Shown: in pieces, positions 2,564-23,380 of the stretch
Layout: every line of letters starts with the position of its first letter
Position numbering within the stretch: position 1 is the first letter of the stretch
NCBI GenBank assembly: GCA_024279945.1
Contig: JAJRRA010000080.1
Coordinates: 1-64,000, forward strand
Direction of reading: 5' to 3'
From: Gammaproteobacteria bacterium
GTDB taxonomy: Bacteria; Pseudomonadota; Gammaproteobacteria; Xanthomonadales; SZUA-36
Length of the DNA: 64,000 bases
Position numbers and translations under genes: made by a program
Notes under the pieces: model-generated
The model's database searches: none
Told to the model about the DNA's origin: nothing
The model's input: only the letters and a program-made list of their open reading frames with translations

Positions 2564-4015
2564 TTATGAATCTGAAGAATAGGACTGGGCGCATGCAACG
2601 CCAAGGATTCCGGCATAGGTCATGGCCACGGCCGGCATCTGCAGGCTGAAGTCAAAATAAGAATGAACCCCCACCAGCACGGTGGCGGCAATGCCGGTGG
2701 CCGGATATACCCAGTCCCGGCCACGCCGGCGCAGGCCCCGGATGCAAATTGCACAAGGCAGCGCGATCACGGTAAACAACAACAAGGCGGCGGGCCAGCC
2801 CAGTTCGAAGGCATTTTCCAGGTAGGTGTTGTGGGACCGGTCGAGATAAGCATCGATGACATCGGTCCGGTACAGGCGGAAACTGTCGGCAAAGGTGCCG
2901 TAACCGAAACCCAGGATCGGATTGTCCCGGGTGGATTCGGAAATGACCTGGTAGGCGGCAAAACGCAGGTTGTTGTCAAACCGCGTCTGGTCGATCCGCT
3001 GGAGCAGTACCTCGCTGGTCAGCCAGAAAGCGATAAACGCGATACCCACTGCCAGGCCAACGGCAGCCAGGGAACCGGTGCTGCGAATCCGGCGGCGATA
3101 ATTGAAGCAGGCCAGCAAGACCACGCCGGCCACCAGGGTGCTGAAGAAACCACCGCGTGAGTGCGTCAGGATCAAAGCGGTGCTCAGCAACAGAATGATA
3201 ATCAGCGGTTTCCACACCTGCAACACACATCGCTCCAGCCATTCGGTGCGCCCGCTGATGTGGGCGCCGGGTGGAATCCGTCCCTTTGCCGGCATCGGTG
3301 AAGGCGGGCCACCGTGCACCACCATGCGCCGGTAAAACAAGCTAATTGCGCAGAGCAATATCAGCCCGGCATAGGTAGCGAAATGGTTGCGGTTCATGAA
3401 GGTGCTGCGTACATCCTGGCGAAAGCCCGGATCCTCGAACAGAAACAAGCCGTTACTACCGCTCCAGAACACCACCAGGCCATAAATGGCGTAGACCAGG
3501 CCGGCAAAGACCAGCCATTGCAAAGTTCTTTTGGCCAGGCGCTGGTCCCTGCCCCACTGGAAGGCGAGAAAAAATACCAGGCCGTAGCTGAGCAGGCGCA
3601 TGACGGCGGTGAAGCTGTCATCCGGGGCCAGCGAAATGCTGCCGGGGGATGGTGCAACAGCGCCTGGCGCCAGTACAGCGGATGACATGGCCCACAGGGG
3701 GTGTTTCCAGTGTTGCGGAACAAAACCGCTGGTTTGTACCACTGCCCAGGCGCAAACCAGCAGGAAGGCAATCATCAGCGCCAAGTTAAGCCGGAGTGAC
3801 TGCTTTGTCCCACCAAACAACGACAGGGCGGACCAGCCAAGGGCCAGAACAGAAATCAGTGCGGCACACAGCGTCCACGACCACTCACGGTTGCTGCCCA
3901 GCGGCAATGGCGCCAGCACCAGCACCAGCAAAAACAGGTAGAACAGAAAGGTGTTGGCACCGTTCGTCACGCTGTTCGGTGGCCTGCTGGTGGCATTGCG
4001 ACCGGGCCTATTCAT
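2564..4015 (-). CDS. O-antigen ligase/polymerase-like membrane protein
   Basis: A 483-residue protein with about eleven hydrophobic helices and a large periplasmic loop in the second half, where the segment GFGYGTF is followed downstream by the SHNTYLE motif. This is the layout of the Wzy_C (O-antigen ligase/polymerase) superfamily, which joins lipid-linked glycans at the periplasmic face. In this operon, polymerisation of the EPS repeat unit is the likely job, but sequence alone does not separate polymerase from ligase. The ATG at 4015 overlaps the stop of the upstream Sel1-SPOR gene (ATGAATAG), which decides the start and suggests translational coupling. Confidence 0.85.
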   Translation of the reverse strand: MNRPGRNATSRPPNSVTNGANTFLFYLFLLVLVLAPLPLGSNREWSWTLCAALISVLALGWSALSLFGGTKQSLRLNLALMIAFLLVCAWAVVQTSGFVPQHWKHPLWAMSSAVLAPGAVAPSPGSISLAPDDSFTAVMRLLSYGLVFFLAFQWGRDQRLAKRTLQWLVFAGLVYAIYGLVVFWSGSNGLFLFEDPGFRQDVRSTFMNRNHFATYAGLILLCAISLFYRRMVVHGGPPSPMPAKGRIPPGAHISGRTEWLERCVLQVWKPLIIILLLSTALILTHSRGGFFSTLVAGVVLLACFNYRRRIRSTGSLAAVGLAVGIAFIAFWLTSEVLLQRIDQTRFDNNLRFAAYQVISESTRDNPILGFGYGTFADSFRLYRTDVIDAYLDRSHNTYLENAFELGWPAALLLFTVIALPCAICIRGLRRRGRDWVYPATGIAATVLVGVHSYFDFSLQMPAVAMTYAGILGVACAQSYSSDS

Positions 4016-5378
4016 TGCCGTCTCGCTCCGCGGCAACCATCAAATCCTGGATCATGCCGAACTGGCGAATCCACAACTGGTCGGTTTTCTGGATGCTGCG
4101 CGGGAAGTTGTCACGCGCCCGGCGGGCAGCGTCTACATCCGCGTAGTTGCCCTGGACCAGTATGTACAGGGTCTTGCCATTGCGTCGCACCGTGTAAGTG
4201 GCGAACGGCGCCAGCGCATCATGGCCCTCGACCAGGCCGTTAAGCTTTTCCGCCGCACTCAGGCCAATCACCTGGATGGTATAACGATCCGGATCCTGCG
4301 CCATTATCCAGGCCACAGGAAGAATGTCGGTAGCCTTCGGCGCATTCTGTGTTACTGACATGGATTCCGGATGCGGCTGCGCCGATCCGGAATGACGGGC
4401 CGTAGGCTGCGCCGATCCGGGCACACTTTCCGTCATCCCGGATTCGCGTAGCCTTCTTCCGCCCGTCATCCCGGATTCGCGTAGCGACATCCGGGATCCA
4501 GCCACCGGGGTGGTGGGTGTGGGCGGCGGCGGATCGCGCATGGCGCTGTACAGGGCGGCCTCTGCGCCGGCATCGCCCTGGGCTGCAGCGGCGGCCAGGT
4601 ATTGCTTGCCCATGGTGATGTCCTGCTCGGTGCCCCAGCCGTTCAGGTAGAAAATACCGAGGTTATATTGACCGTCCACTTCGCCCTGGCGGGCCGCCAG
4701 CGAGAACCACTTGAACGCCTGTTTGTAGTCCTGCTCAACCGCGATGCCCTTGGTGTAGAGGTAGCCCAGTTTGGTCTGCGCACCGGCATGACCCCGATCG
4801 GCGGCTTTTTGCAGCCAGATAGATGCCGCGAAATAGTCCTTTGGCACACCCTGCCCCATCCAGTAGAGCATGGCGATGGCGTAAAGGGTTTCGGCGTAGA
4901 TGGCCGGATGGGTGTTCTCTGCGGGGGCATCCACCACCTCTCTCCAGTCCTCCATGGCCTGGGCGTACAGGCCGGCATCAAAGGCATTGAGGCCGGATTG
5001 GAAATCGGCGGAAGTTGTTGGGGGGAAGAGGAGGAGCAACACTAGCAAGGCGCTGCAGGGGCGCGCAAGCGCGCTTTTGCTGGATCCCGGATGCGGCTGC
5101 GCCGATCCGGGATGACGGGCGGAAGAAAGCTGAGCCGATCCGGGCACATTTTCCGTCATCCCGGATTCGTGCAGCGACTTTTCCTCCGTCATCCCGGATT
5201 CGTGCAGCGACTTTTCCTCCGTCATCCCGGATTCGCGCAGCGACTTTTCCTCCGTCATCGCGGATTCGCGCAGCGACTTTTCCTCCGTCATCCCGGATTC
5301 GCGCAGCGACTTTTCCTCCGTCATCCCGGATTCGCGCAGCGACATCCGGGATCCAGTCGCTTTAGTCGGTGAGGTCAT
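4008..5378 (-). CDS. Sel1-repeat and SPOR-domain protein invaded by palindromic repeats
   Basis: A 456-residue protein in the EPS operon. The start is fixed by an ATGA overlap with the upstream phosphoesterase stop. After only about seven ordinary residues, residues 8-98 are encoded by family B repeat DNA (recurring SLRESGMTEEK). A hydrophobic export segment then follows (ALLVLLLLFPPTTSA, about 107-121). Sel1/TPR-like repeats (AIWLQKAADRGHAGAQTKLG, AFKWFSLAARQGEVDGQYNLG) occupy roughly 155-280. A second family B insertion makes up residues 293-340. A SPOR-like domain (YTIQVIGL to LYILVQGNYAD) lies near 360-440; SPOR domains bind denuded peptidoglycan. The domains suggest a periplasmic scaffold or EPS-assembly accessory. 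Whether the repeat-encoded N-terminus still allows secretion is unknown. Confidence 0.85.
   Translation of the reverse strand: MTSPTKATGSRMSLRESGMTEEKSLRESGMTEEKSLRESAMTEEKSLRESGMTEEKSLHESGMTEEKSLHESGMTENVPGSAQLSSARHPGSAQPHPGSSKSALARPCSALLVLLLLFPPTTSADFQSGLNAFDAGLYAQAMEDWREVVDAPAENTHPAIYAETLYAIAMLYWMGQGVPKDYFAASIWLQKAADRGHAGAQTKLGYLYTKGIAVEQDYKQAFKWFSLAARQGEVDGQYNLGIFYLNGWGTEQDITMGKQYLAAAAAQGDAGAEAALYSAMRDPPPPTPTTPVAGSRMSLRESGMTGGRRLRESGMTESVPGSAQPTARHSGSAQPHPESMSVTQNAPKATDILPVAWIMAQDPDRYTIQVIGLSAAEKLNGLVEGHDALAPFATYTVRRNGKTLYILVQGNYADVDAARRARDNFPRSIQKTDQLWIRQFGMIQDLMVAAERDGNE
4360..4501. repeat. Family B palindromic cluster inside the Sel1-SPOR gene, inner site
   Basis: Two complete 38-bp family B elements, 4360-4397 and 4464-4501, face each other as an inverted pair with partial copies between them. 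The full element begins CGTCATCCCGGA and ends TCCGGGATCCAG, with an inner GCGTAGCGAC-type core. The cluster lies inside the reading frame of the Sel1-SPOR gene without any stop codon. It encodes the linker at residues 293-340, including SLRESGMT, between the Sel1 and SPOR domains. Confidence 0.93.
5080..5356. repeat. Family B cluster inside the Sel1-SPOR gene, N-terminal site, with 33-bp tandem array
   Basis: A complete inverted copy at 5080-5117 and a complete forward copy at 5319-5356 bracket a tandem array of half-elements. GTCATC recurs at 5155, 5188, 5221, 5254, 5287 and 5320, an exact 33-bp period equal to 11 codons. On the minus strand each unit reads as ESGMTEEKSLR, or ESGMTEEKSLH in the two copies nearest the left end. 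The array separates the first codons of the gene from the hydrophobic core of its export signal. Near-identical units point to recent expansion. Confidence 0.95.
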
Positions 5379-14376: not shown

Positions 14377-14414
14377 CGTCATCCCGGAATTGCATAGCAA
14401 CTTCCGGGATCCAG
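14377..14414 (+). repeat. Family B 38-bp element, left flank of the GIY-YIG gene
   Basis: A complete 38-bp imperfect palindrome (starts CGTCATCCCGGA, ends TCCGGGATCCAG). Its inverse at 14803-14840 matches at 37 of 38 positions, and the two bracket the GIY-YIG nuclease gene like terminal inverted repeats. Confidence 0.95.
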
Positions 14415-14501
14415 CCAGCGCTGCGTATCACCTCCCATTTCCTACAAATATTCGTGCAAATTACTTTCACGCAAATTTGAATATTCATCGAAAATAGCCG
14501 G

Positions 14502-14795
14502 ATGCGAAAGAATCCCTGTGTTTACATCATGGCCAGCAAGCGCAATGGAACGATCTATGTTGGTGTTACTTCCAGCATTCAACATCGTGCGTGGCAACAC
14601 AGAACAGGATTTTGTGGTGGTTTCACCAAGAAGTATCAAGTAAATCAGCTCGTCTATTTCGAATTCCTGGCCACGATGCCGGAAGCGATCAAGAGAGAAA
14701 AGCAACTGAAGAACTGGACCAGAAAGCGGAAGCTGGCCTTGATTGAATCAATGAACCCCGAGTGGAAGGATTTGTTTTCGTTTGTAATTGCATGA
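14502..14795 (+). CDS. Small GIY-YIG nuclease-domain protein
   Basis: A 97-residue protein consisting of one GIY-YIG domain. The motif halves are VYIMAS (residues 7-12) and IYVGVT (18-23), with the conserved Arg in IQHRAWQHRTG (about 26-36), followed by the catalytic glutamate region EAIKREKQLKNW (about 62-73) and the typical NPEWKDLF ending. This is the small YhbQ/UPF0213-like group, whose members cut or bind DNA but whose roles are mostly unknown. The gene has no clear ribosome site. It is bracketed by inverted 38-bp family B elements (14377-14414 and 14803-14840), and a tandem family B array follows, so it may be part of a mobile unit. Confidence 0.88.
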   Translation: MRKNPCVYIMASKRNGTIYVGVTSSIQHRAWQHRTGFCGGFTKKYQVNQLVYFEFLATMPEAIKREKQLKNWTRKRKLALIESMNPEWKDLFSFVIA

Positions 14796-14802
14796 GTGGC
14801 TT

Positions 14803-14840
14803 CTGGATCCCGGAAGTTGCTACGCAATTCCGGGATGACG
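14803..14840 (-). repeat. Family B 38-bp element, right flank of the GIY-YIG gene
   Basis: The inverted partner of the element at 14377-14414, 37 of 38 bases identical. It begins 8 bp after the GIY-YIG stop codon. Together the pair and the gene span 464 bp. Confidence 0.95.
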
Positions 14841-14853
14841 AGGGGGTGCGTTG

Positions 14854-15030
14854 CCATATTTCTCCGTCATTCCGGATCGGCGTTGCCATATTTCTCCGTC
14901 ATTCCGGATCGGCGTTGCCATATTTCTCCGTCATTCCGGATCGGCGTTGCCATATTTCTCCGTCATTCCGGATCGGCGTTGCCATATTTCTCCGTCATTC
15001 CGGATCGGCGTAGCCGTATCCGGAATCCAG
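14854..15030. repeat. Family B tandem array, 32-bp period
   Basis: CGTCATTCCGG recurs at 14865, 14897, 14929, 14961 and 14993, an exact 32-bp period with CCATATTTCTC linkers. The last copy is a complete 38-bp element (14993-15030, variant ending CCGGAATCCAG). The other four are half-elements truncated at GCGTTG. The array lies between the GIY-YIG gene and the HAD phosphatase gene, whose stop is 15 bp away. Confidence 0.95.
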
Positions 15031-15044
15031 TGGCTTCTAATCCA

Positions 15045-15932
15045 TTAATCTCCGCAGCCTTGCGGGGGGGTGTATTCGGGGAAGAAGAAGTTATCTCGGC
15101 CGAGCATGGTCAATACCTGCCGTAGTGGCGGTCTGATCTGTAGCCACAATTCGGCCGCCTTGTCGCGGTCAAAGGAATTTACGGCTCCATCTTCGCGACT
15201 GTAACGCCAGGCGTGCACGGTGGTGCCGCTGCCCTGGAATGTTTCCATGACCGCCCGAAGGTTACGCTCCTTGTCATCCGCCATCACAATCACGGCCGGC
15301 CAGGGCGTGCCGGTTTTGTCCAGCAGGGCACGCAGCATGGTGCCTTTATTCTGCCCCGCAGTCATGAAAACACCATCTTCGTAACGCGCATCACGCGTGC
15401 CGCCTGCGGGAACGAAAACCTCCGGATAGCCGCGCTCAGGCCCGATCGCCGAGGCGTAAAAGCTGAAACCGTTGCGGCGCAATTCGCGGAAAGTAGCCAG
15501 GCGAAAATCCGGTCCACGCGAGGTGAGAGCGATCACTTTCAGGCCATCATCCTGCAAACGCTGCACCAGTTCAGCGGCATCCGCTTGGGTTGGCCGCATG
15601 GCACTAACATAAAAAAGAGCCCCCTGAACCGCGAGGCGGTCGCTGACCAGGCGTGCATCGCAGGGGTCGGTCAGTTGCAATCGACTCTGCCAGTCATACC
15701 ACTGGTCTGAGCCCAGTCCCTGCTTCATCGCCATCAGTGTGTTGTCGATATCGAACACCACGAGAACCCGATCTGTGCCATGAGTTTTCGCTGAATCCCG
15801 GGCATCATCAAGCACATAAGCCAGGCTGTTGGTCTCCTGCAAGCTACTTTCGGTGCGGGGAGCACTCGCGCAGGCCGTCAGGAACATCAGCAGCAGTGAA
15901 AAAGTGAAAACGGACTTGAGTTTGCTGGTCAT
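15045..15932 (-). CDS. HAD-family acid phosphatase-like lipoprotein (DUF2608-like)
   Basis: A 295-residue lipoprotein: signal peptide MTSKLKSVFTFSLLLMFLTAC with lipobox LTAC, so it is probably anchored in the outer membrane facing the periplasm. HAD motif I is VVFDIDNTLMAM (DxDxT), motif II the IALTSRG segment, motif III/IV VIVMADDKERNL. A VLDDARDSAKTHGTDR helix precedes motif I. The pattern fits the DUF2608 branch of HAD hydrolases. Substrate unknown. The start at 15932 is chosen because it begins the lipoprotein signal; upstream translation would run antisense through the tRNA-Ser gene. The stop abuts a family B array. Confidence 0.85.
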   Translation of the reverse strand: MTSKLKSVFTFSLLLMFLTACASAPRTESSLQETNSLAYVLDDARDSAKTHGTDRVLVVFDIDNTLMAMKQGLGSDQWYDWQSRLQLTDPCDARLVSDRLAVQGALFYVSAMRPTQADAAELVQRLQDDGLKVIALTSRGPDFRLATFRELRRNGFSFYASAIGPERGYPEVFVPAGGTRDARYEDGVFMTAGQNKGTMLRALLDKTGTPWPAVIVMADDKERNLRAVMETFQGSGTTVHAWRYSREDGAVNSFDRDKAAELWLQIRPPLRQVLTMLGRDNFFFPEYTPPQGCGD

Positions 15933-15998
15933 TTTGGGCTCGCCTCGCTGGTCAGTCGATACTCTGCCAGCGCAGGCCCACTTTCGCAACGCACAACA

Positions 15999-16027
15999 TT
16001 GCCAAAGCTGCCCACATCCCCTAAAAT
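15999..16027 (+). promoter_or_regulatory. Sigma-70 promoter of tRNA-Ser
   Basis: The -35 box TTGCCA (15999-16004) and -10 box TAAAAT (16022-16027) are separated by 17 bp, followed by a GC-rich stretch and then the tRNA 36 bases after the -10. This suits a strong, growth-rate-controlled tRNA promoter. Confidence 0.6.
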
Positions 16028-16063
16028 TGCCGCCCCTTCCGGTCGAAAGGGAACAGGTTTTAT

Positions 16064-16156
<93 letters not shown>

Positions 16157-16195
16157 GAAATACACAAGCCCCGCTTTGGCGGGGTTTTGTATTTC
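16157..16195 (+). terminator. Intrinsic terminator after tRNA-Ser
   Basis: A long near-perfect hairpin: GAAATACACAAGCCCCGC pairs with GCGGGGTTTTGTATTTC around a TTTG loop. The inner GCCCCGC/GCGGGG stem is followed by TTTTGT, and symmetry makes it likely to work in both directions. Confidence 0.85.
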
Positions 16196-16323
16196 TGATG
16201 CAGCGCCGGGGTTCGAAGCCTCGCGACGCACAGCGTCGCACGAGGGTTTGACAAATTTGTCTGGAACAAATTTGGTCGCACAGAGTGCGCCCGCAGGGAG
16301 GGAAGTTGCTACGCCCACCCCTC

Positions 16324-16407
16324 CGTCATTCCGGATCGGCGTAGCCGTATCCGGAATCCACATGGGTGGCTAGATCCCGGAAGTTGCTATGCAATTCCGG
16401 GATGACG
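16324..16407. repeat. Inverted pair of family B elements downstream of tRNA-Ser
   Basis: A forward 38-bp copy (16324-16361; CGTCATTCCGG variant) and an inverted 38-bp copy (16370-16407; nearly identical to those flanking the GIY-YIG gene, ending CTAG instead of CCAG). They are 8 bp apart and would fold into one large cruciform or hairpin between the tRNA and the AhpD-like gene, whose stop is 21 bp further. Confidence 0.93.
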
Positions 16408-16427
16408 GGAGGGAAAAGGTGGCTGTG

Positions 16428-17024
16428 CTATGCGTGTTGCCATTCGTTGTTGTCGGGGGAGAGGCCGAGTTTTTCGCCGTCGGTGCTGACGCCCAGGCCG
16501 GCGACGGTGCGGTTGGCGTAGGCGAAATAGGCGGCTACCTGGTTGATTTCAAGGATTTCACCGTCTTTCAGGCCGGCGGCCTGCATCTTTTTGATATCTT
16601 CTTCGCTGATTTCTCCGGGCGTGTTGCTCAGCTTGCGCACGTAAGCGAGAGCGGCGCGTTCAGCAGGCGAGAACGGCGGACCCGGTTCATCCTGCGCCAG
16701 TTCTGCGACAATTGCCTCGAAGCGTTCGGTTTCGCCGGACAGGATGCGCTTGAGGCCGGCGCGGTGGTGGCTGACGCAATAGGTGCATTTGTTCAGCATA
16801 CTGACCTGCACGCCGATGGTTTCAAGGAACCACAGCGGCAACTTGTTGTGTGGGTGGTGCAGCACAGCCTTGTACAGTGCCATGTGCCCTTCGAGCGAGT
16901 GCGGGCGAAGGCTGTGAACCTGTAAAACGTTGTCTACCTGGCCGCCCGGACCGCTCACACGGGCATAGATTTTCGCCAGCCTGCCAGTGGCGGATGCGGG
17001 GTCGATCACTTTTATGAATGCCAT
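16428..17024 (-). CDS. AhpD/carboxymuconolactone decarboxylase-like peroxidase-related protein
   Basis: A 198-residue all-helical protein with the AhpD-type motif ETIGVQVSMLNKCTYCVSHH (about residues 67-87): a CxxC pair, a downstream His and an upstream Glu, the proton-relay set of alkylhydroperoxidase D. The length matches the 'uncharacterised peroxidase-related enzyme' subgroup rather than carboxymuconolactone decarboxylase itself. Likely role: thiol-dependent peroxide reduction. Only 48 bp separate its start from the divergent EEP gene, so they probably share a promoter region. Confidence 0.85.
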   Translation of the reverse strand: MAFIKVIDPASATGRLAKIYARVSGPGGQVDNVLQVHSLRPHSLEGHMALYKAVLHHPHNKLPLWFLETIGVQVSMLNKCTYCVSHHRAGLKRILSGETERFEAIVAELAQDEPGPPFSPAERAALAYVRKLSNTPGEISEEDIKKMQAAGLKDGEILEINQVAAYFAYANRTVAGLGVSTDGEKLGLSPDNNEWQHA

Positions 17025-23274: not shown

Positions 23275-23380
23275 CTGGATCCCGGATGTCGCTGCGCGAA
23301 TCCGGGATGACGGGGGAGGAGCACGCTGCGCGAATCCGGGATGACGGGGGAGGAGCACGCTGCGCGAATCCGGGATGACG
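23275..23380. repeat. Family B element and 34-bp tandem half-elements upstream of tRNA-Asn
   Basis: An inverted 38-bp copy (23275-23312) is followed by two further half-units with a 34-bp period (ATGACG at 23307, 23341 and 23375), separated by GGGGAGGAGCACGCTG linkers. The cluster lies 72 bp before tRNA-Asn. Confidence 0.93.

Follow-up and report, generated by a model that had tools for sequence, protein, structure and literature searches.

REPs are among the commonest repeats of bacterial genomes and fall into two large superfamilies, GTAG and CGTC. The known partner enzyme of the GTAG REPs is the RAYT, a Y1 HUH transposase. The CGTC REPs, which include dRS3 of Neisseria and RPE-4 and RPE-6 of Rickettsia, are defined by an unpaired CGTC end, a stem starting with AT and an unpaired CCA tail, and the published families 1-4 have stems of 8-9 bp and loops of 4-5 nt (Di Nocera et al. 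2013, PMC3733652). According to the same survey, the CGTC REPs “apparently lack a dedicated transposase”, and it was suggested that their transposase has perhaps died out (PMC3733652). GIY-YIG is mentioned neither in that survey nor in three later papers citing it, and palindromes are not mentioned in a 2006 survey of GIY-YIG enzymes (PMC1564403). A literature search that covered few subscription papers and no preprints found no earlier report of a link between GIY-YIG proteins and REPs.

The window, the whole stretch of 64,000 nucleotides analysed here, contains two inverted palindromic arms separated by 388 nt, between which an ORF for a 97-aa GIY-YIG nuclease is the sole gene of note (Table 1). 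The arms are identical in 37 of 38 bases with one mismatch, and the protein matches the Pfam GIY-YIG family PF01541 with an E value of 8e-16; the arrangement described in an earlier note on this DNA is thus borne out. As single-stranded DNA, both arms fold into a hairpin consisting of CGTC, a stem of 13 bp interrupted by one bulged C, a 3-nt loop and CCAG, with an energy of -11.6 kcal/mol and z scores of -5.9 to -6.9 relative to shuffled sequence. The nuclease gene is single-copy in the source genome, where the only other GIY-YIG match is of UvrC length.

Table 1. The nuclease gene, its arms and the dispersed CGTC palindromes of the window
Feature	Position	Strand	Remarks
CGTC palindrome within CDS 4008-5378	4363-4396	-	
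CGTC palindrome within CDS 4008-5378	4465-4498	+	
CGTC palindrome within ORF 4008-5378	5083-5116	-	
CGTC palindrome following tandem half-unit array	5320-5353	+	
Upstream CGTC palindrome	14377-14414	+	CGTC head points away from GIY-YIG gene, CCAG tail towards gene
97-aa GIY-YIG nuclease gene	14502-14795	+	Pfam GIY-YIG match, invariant active-site positions, AlphaFold2 model
Downstream CGTC palindrome, inverted copy of upstream arm	14803-14840	-	CCAG tail towards GIY-YIG gene
Tandem array, 32-bp unit carrying palindrome left half (CCGTCATTCCGGATCG)	14848-15013	+	
CGTC palindrome, GGATCGGCGTAGCCGTATCC variant	14994-15027	+	
CGTC palindrome, inverted doublet partner 1	16325-16358	+	
CGTC palindrome, inverted doublet partner 2, variant as in arm at 14377	16373-16406	-	
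Dispersed CGTC palindrome	23278-23311	-	

The earlier note had also described the palindrome as spread through the window in solo and paired copies, and such copies, 85-98% alike, recur at other places in the window as well as on further contigs, with about 10 close matches genome-wide. A loose CGTC-REP pattern, GTCATNCC(6-26)GGNATCCA, occurs at 30 places in the source genome, compared with 1 for the reversed pattern. At 14848-15013 and ~5155-5350, tandem repeats of ~32-33 bp, each composed of half a palindrome and a spacer, adjoin full palindromes. The predicted CDS at 4008-5378 (minus strand, 456 aa) carries several CGTC palindromes in frame as RESGMT-type peptides; one palindrome block lies mid-protein, which can be likened to the Rickettsia palindromic elements, and some of the N-terminal repeats may precede the true start. 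We also note that a HAD-type gene segment at 15045-16428 is inverted relative to a congeneric genome (G001, locus L286) and is flanked by inverted CGTC palindromes, as would be expected had these palindromes mediated an inversion.

Many genomes of the order contain homologues of the nuclease at 41-60% identity, and in 68 of 82 order-level loci the inverted repeat formed by the upstream and downstream sequences beats all of 100 shuffles. A named set of 80 loci, one genome per species, extends over Proteobacteria, Planctomycetes, Armatimonadetes, Chloroflexi and candidate phyla. A bracketing inverted repeat with a score of at least 15 is seen at 63 of the 76 named loci with enough flank. Within the same loci, such a repeat surrounds 2 of 412 positions placed 0.9-2.3 kb away and 9 of 215 ORFs other than the nuclease gene, and it is found at 0 of 21 loci of UPF0213-type GIY-YIG genes, a related control family. 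Almost all of the bracketing repeats follow a single design, CGTC-AT-stem-loop-stem-AT-CCA, and the CCA tail of the upstream arm faces the gene in 104 of 127 cases. About 17% of the homologues lie without a bracketing repeat; a general lack of palindromes at homologous loci, which the earlier note named as counter-evidence, is contradicted by the named and the order-level loci alike. The window locus is one case of a general pattern.

Most homologous loci elsewhere resemble the short-stem CGTC-REP design. Nuclease homologues are also present in carriers of CGTC REPs named in the 2013 survey, namely A. lipoferum, S. meliloti and M. aeruginosavorus (PMC3733652). In Neisseria gonorrhoeae (L204, represented by two chromosome-sized records filed as plasmids), one copy of the homologue lies among dRS3-type repeats. 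In Planktothrix agardhii (L213) a homologue is found on a plasmid, between a MmeI-like restriction enzyme gene and the DISARM gene drmA.

The type of palindrome is coupled to the type of nuclease. When the arms are sorted into classes (short-loop NGC4, TGCGAG, CTTGA, CTGAACTTG and TGAGCG) and placed on a nuclease tree of 95 columns in which many forks are weak, 17 class changes are required compared with 43.1 for shuffled labels, and none of 200 shuffles gives a number as low. For 48 named loci whose labels were shuffled within host class, the corresponding values are 5 and 15.9 (lowest 12; 0 of 500 as low), and host descent therefore does not explain the coupling. Multi-copy genomes (e.g. G045, G192 and G138) hold nuclease copies with different palindromes. 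The list of residues that differ between the nucleases of two palindrome classes may include differences due to descent and is therefore no guide to recognition residues. In another genome (G094, locus L010), two CGTC hairpins, CCCGCGAAAGCGGG and CCGGGCGAGCGTAGCGAGACCCGG, are paired in alternating arrays.

The partnership between nuclease and palindrome is well supported, and the REPIN-like pairing with a GIY-YIG enzyme that the earlier note had put forward is upheld as a partnership by the bracketing, the coupling of types and the copy numbers described below. The gene and its two palindromes probably constitute an autonomous unit of a CGTC-REP system, in which the nuclease is the dedicated partner and is likely to cut or spread the palindromes. 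Beyond the partnership itself, we infer recognition, nicking and mobilisation by the nuclease, as well as the identity of the joining activity.

Comparison of orthologous sites reveals that the gene is absent from relatives at five loci, that of the window included, and the empty sites that the earlier note had suggested looking for thus exist. In Azospirillum lipoferum 4B the sufB-sufC interval is 617 nt long and holds a palindrome doublet, the gene and a further palindrome doublet, as opposed to 91, 87 and 129 nt with neither gene nor CGTC palindrome in A. ramasamyi, A. oryzae and B510, respectively. The corresponding lengths are ~690 nt with the gene in Shinella HZN7 versus ~120 nt in H4-D48, and 665 nt with the gene in G079 versus ~11 nt (G073) and ~21 nt (G112). 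In a further genus, the bracketed gene is present in four species, a single palindrome stands without the gene in G179 and G187, and G148 has neither. Next to the window's neighbour gene, the congeneric G001 is without palindromes or nuclease, and gene order there is also rearranged. A solo palindrome, which could be a target or a remnant, is present at two of the gene-less sites and none at the others (the relatives of G079, Azospirillum, Shinella and the window). Since the gene is present or absent at orthologous sites, the gene-palindrome unit comes and goes, and because the empty relatives of G079, Azospirillum, Shinella and the window hold no palindrome, palindromes and gene look to have been inserted together. 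Neither a target-site duplication nor a precise insertion boundary is readable at the compared sites, because the intergenic DNA of the relatives has diverged. Two further candidate empty sites were rejected: in Sinorhizobium the stretch with the gene can be aligned between Ak57 and M103, which differ there by a repeat array, and Rhizobium CIAT894 has an IS as upstream neighbour of the gene and offers no clean empty site.

These sites bear on a reading that we consider unlikely, in which the nuclease is a selfish homing enzyme that cuts a pre-existing solo palindrome, repair copies in the palindrome-gene-palindrome unit, and the palindromes themselves spread by other means. The single palindrome found in G179 and G187 at the place where four species of the genus carry the bracketed gene speaks for such homing, and GIY-YIG domains are known in homing endonucleases. 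The palindrome-free relatives listed above argue against it, however; the protein has no separate DNA-binding domain of the kind present in I-TevI, and homing leaves unexplained that the number of palindromes tracks the gene.

This tracking is observed across 200 genomes, in which the loose pattern occurs at a median of 8 places in the 59 genomes with the gene and 1 in the 141 without (p 3e-12), and the effect persists under shuffling inside families. Paired genus means show more palindromes with the gene in 11 of 16 genera (p 0.004); in the remaining 5 they are not more numerous with the gene, the pattern missing variants such as GTCGTCCCGG...CCGGGACC. The 21 palindrome-rich genomes (at least 20 copies) comprise 17 with the gene and 4 without, so that an abundance of palindromes in genomes lacking the gene, which the earlier note regarded as adverse to its proposal, is true of a minority and does not hold for the majority. 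The gene-less four (G073, G087, G102 and G108) have 53-87 places, two of their assemblies being 86% complete. The count of 66 in G073, compared with 180 and 157 in the congeneric G079 and G112, fits a loss of the gene with palindromes decaying.

The copy numbers also bear on the idea, which we hold to be improbable, that the gene is a passenger, carried as cargo between palindromes moved by a RAYT, an IS or replication slippage. RAYT-type Y1 genes are indeed present in the source genome: the statement of the earlier note that no RAYT is found is correct for the window and incorrect for the genome, which has two Y1_Tnp genes. REPs also occasionally bracket unrelated genes, as in the 9 ORFs counted above. 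Across the 200 genomes, however, Y1 (RAYT/IS200) genes show no association with palindrome number (p 0.28), and several of the highest counts are from genomes that have the nuclease and no Y1 gene, namely G079 (180 places), G112 (157), G047 (145), G040 (95) and G094 (68). Neither Y1 gene of the source genome lies among CGTC palindromes, and one has its own REPs on its flanks, in an array of clearly different sequence, GTAAGAGGCCGCTTGCGGCC. A RAYT or IS200 as the mover of the CGTC palindromes was rejected on these two grounds. Covariation of nuclease type and palindrome type across phyla is, moreover, not what one would expect of cargo. As a separate observation, a RAYT-type Y1 gene of the source genome (locus L100, G000:C26; gene at 3693-4022) has long arrays of its own REPs, GTAAGAGGCCGCTTGCGGCCGACCGG.

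The protein itself is a single domain with no separate DNA-binding module. Among 20 diverse members of the family, its active-site positions Y8, Y19, G21, R29, E66 and N85 show no variation, in keeping with an active GIY-YIG enzyme as judged from sequence. The AlphaFold2 model has a pLDDT of 94, and its nearest folds are UPF0213, Slx1 and the N-domain of UvrC. The substrates cut by Slx1 and UvrC are branched or damaged DNA, and reading of a hairpin by the nuclease is therefore plausible. PADLOC gives no match for the nuclease as a defence gene, and NCBIfam holds no curated family for its subfamily. A phage origin was rejected, the phage matches being distant and with less than 80% coverage.

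The proximity of the fold to Slx1 and UvrC would equally suit a host structure-specific nuclease that removes cruciforms and is kept beside the palindromes it polices. We regard such a repair role as very unlikely, given that the gene is patchily distributed, that one genome may hold several divergent copies whose palindromes differ, and that the gene is present or absent at orthologous sites. That the arrangement reflects chance or a general crowding of palindromes in intergenic DNA, where palindromes are common in these genomes, is refuted by the offset, ORF and UPF0213-type controls and has a negligible probability.

Partnership with a nuclease that acts on the palindromes thus stands as the preferred reading; the nuclease most likely propagates the REP hairpin by cutting it, and an unrelated enzyme would then fill the place that the RAYT has elsewhere. 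The nuclease would recognise the hairpin of the palindrome in single-stranded or extruded DNA and would nick at or close to one of its unpaired ends, the CGTC head or the CCA tail. The host's replication and repair machinery would then complete the copying or insertion by which solo, paired and gene-carrying units reach new sites. HUH transposases transesterify DNA, whereas hydrolysis with no covalent intermediate is what one expects of a GIY-YIG enzyme, and the joining must therefore come from the host; host-supplied joining would be the weakest step of this model.

To the broader proposal, that these units are a second and unrelated answer to the REP problem, a class of transposase-free mobile DNA whose cognate hairpin is cut by a minimal GIY-YIG nuclease and then spread by host repair, we give an even chance. 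If true, it would explain CGTC REPs in general, including dRS3 and the Rickettsia palindromic elements. Other palindromes would perhaps also be explained, because CCGTTCGCCCTGAGC palindromes flank the genes of a further GIY-YIG subfamily. This subfamily, with the motif GHTDNL (loci L090, L094, L095, L098 and L256-L259), has CCGTTCGCCCTGAGC...GTCGAAGGGC palindromes on both sides at ~5 of 7 loci. The nuclease described here is the best candidate for the long-missing spreading enzyme of the CGTC REPs, and as it is specific, tiny and easily purified, the question is testable at once. A widespread protein known in databases only as “GIY-YIG nuclease family protein” would thereby gain a function, and technology might gain a new nuclease that reads hairpins.

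By comparison with known systems, the palindromes are best filed as a long-stem variant of the CGTC REPs, the protein as a GIY-YIG nuclease whose subfamily has no curated name in NCBIfam, and the two together as a REP system that resembles RAYT-REPIN in operation without being one. The window arms share with the published CGTC REPs the CGTC head, the AT stem start, the CCA tail and the dispersed solo and paired copies, some of them intragenic; they differ in the 13-bp bulged stem and the 3-nt loop, which fall outside the published size criterion (PMC3733652). With UPF0213/YhbQ (PDB 1zg2) the nuclease shares its size and the nearest solved fold. Nevertheless, it lies outside the UPF0213 branch, with ~24% identity to 1zg2 and a weak profile match, and the UPF0213 loci are unbracketed. 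The GIY-YIG homing endonucleases of the I-TevI type have the same catalytic domain and a mobile-looking distribution; the present nuclease differs from them in its lack of DNA-binding modules, its location outside introns and inteins, and its flanking palindromes. A parallel in organisation is REPIN/RAYT, where a dispersed hairpin family is likewise accompanied by a gene bracketed by inverted copies and the palindrome variant of a genome matches its gene. The two systems differ in that the enzyme here, a GIY-YIG nuclease, has no relationship to HUH transposases and the head of the palindrome is CGTC rather than GTAG.
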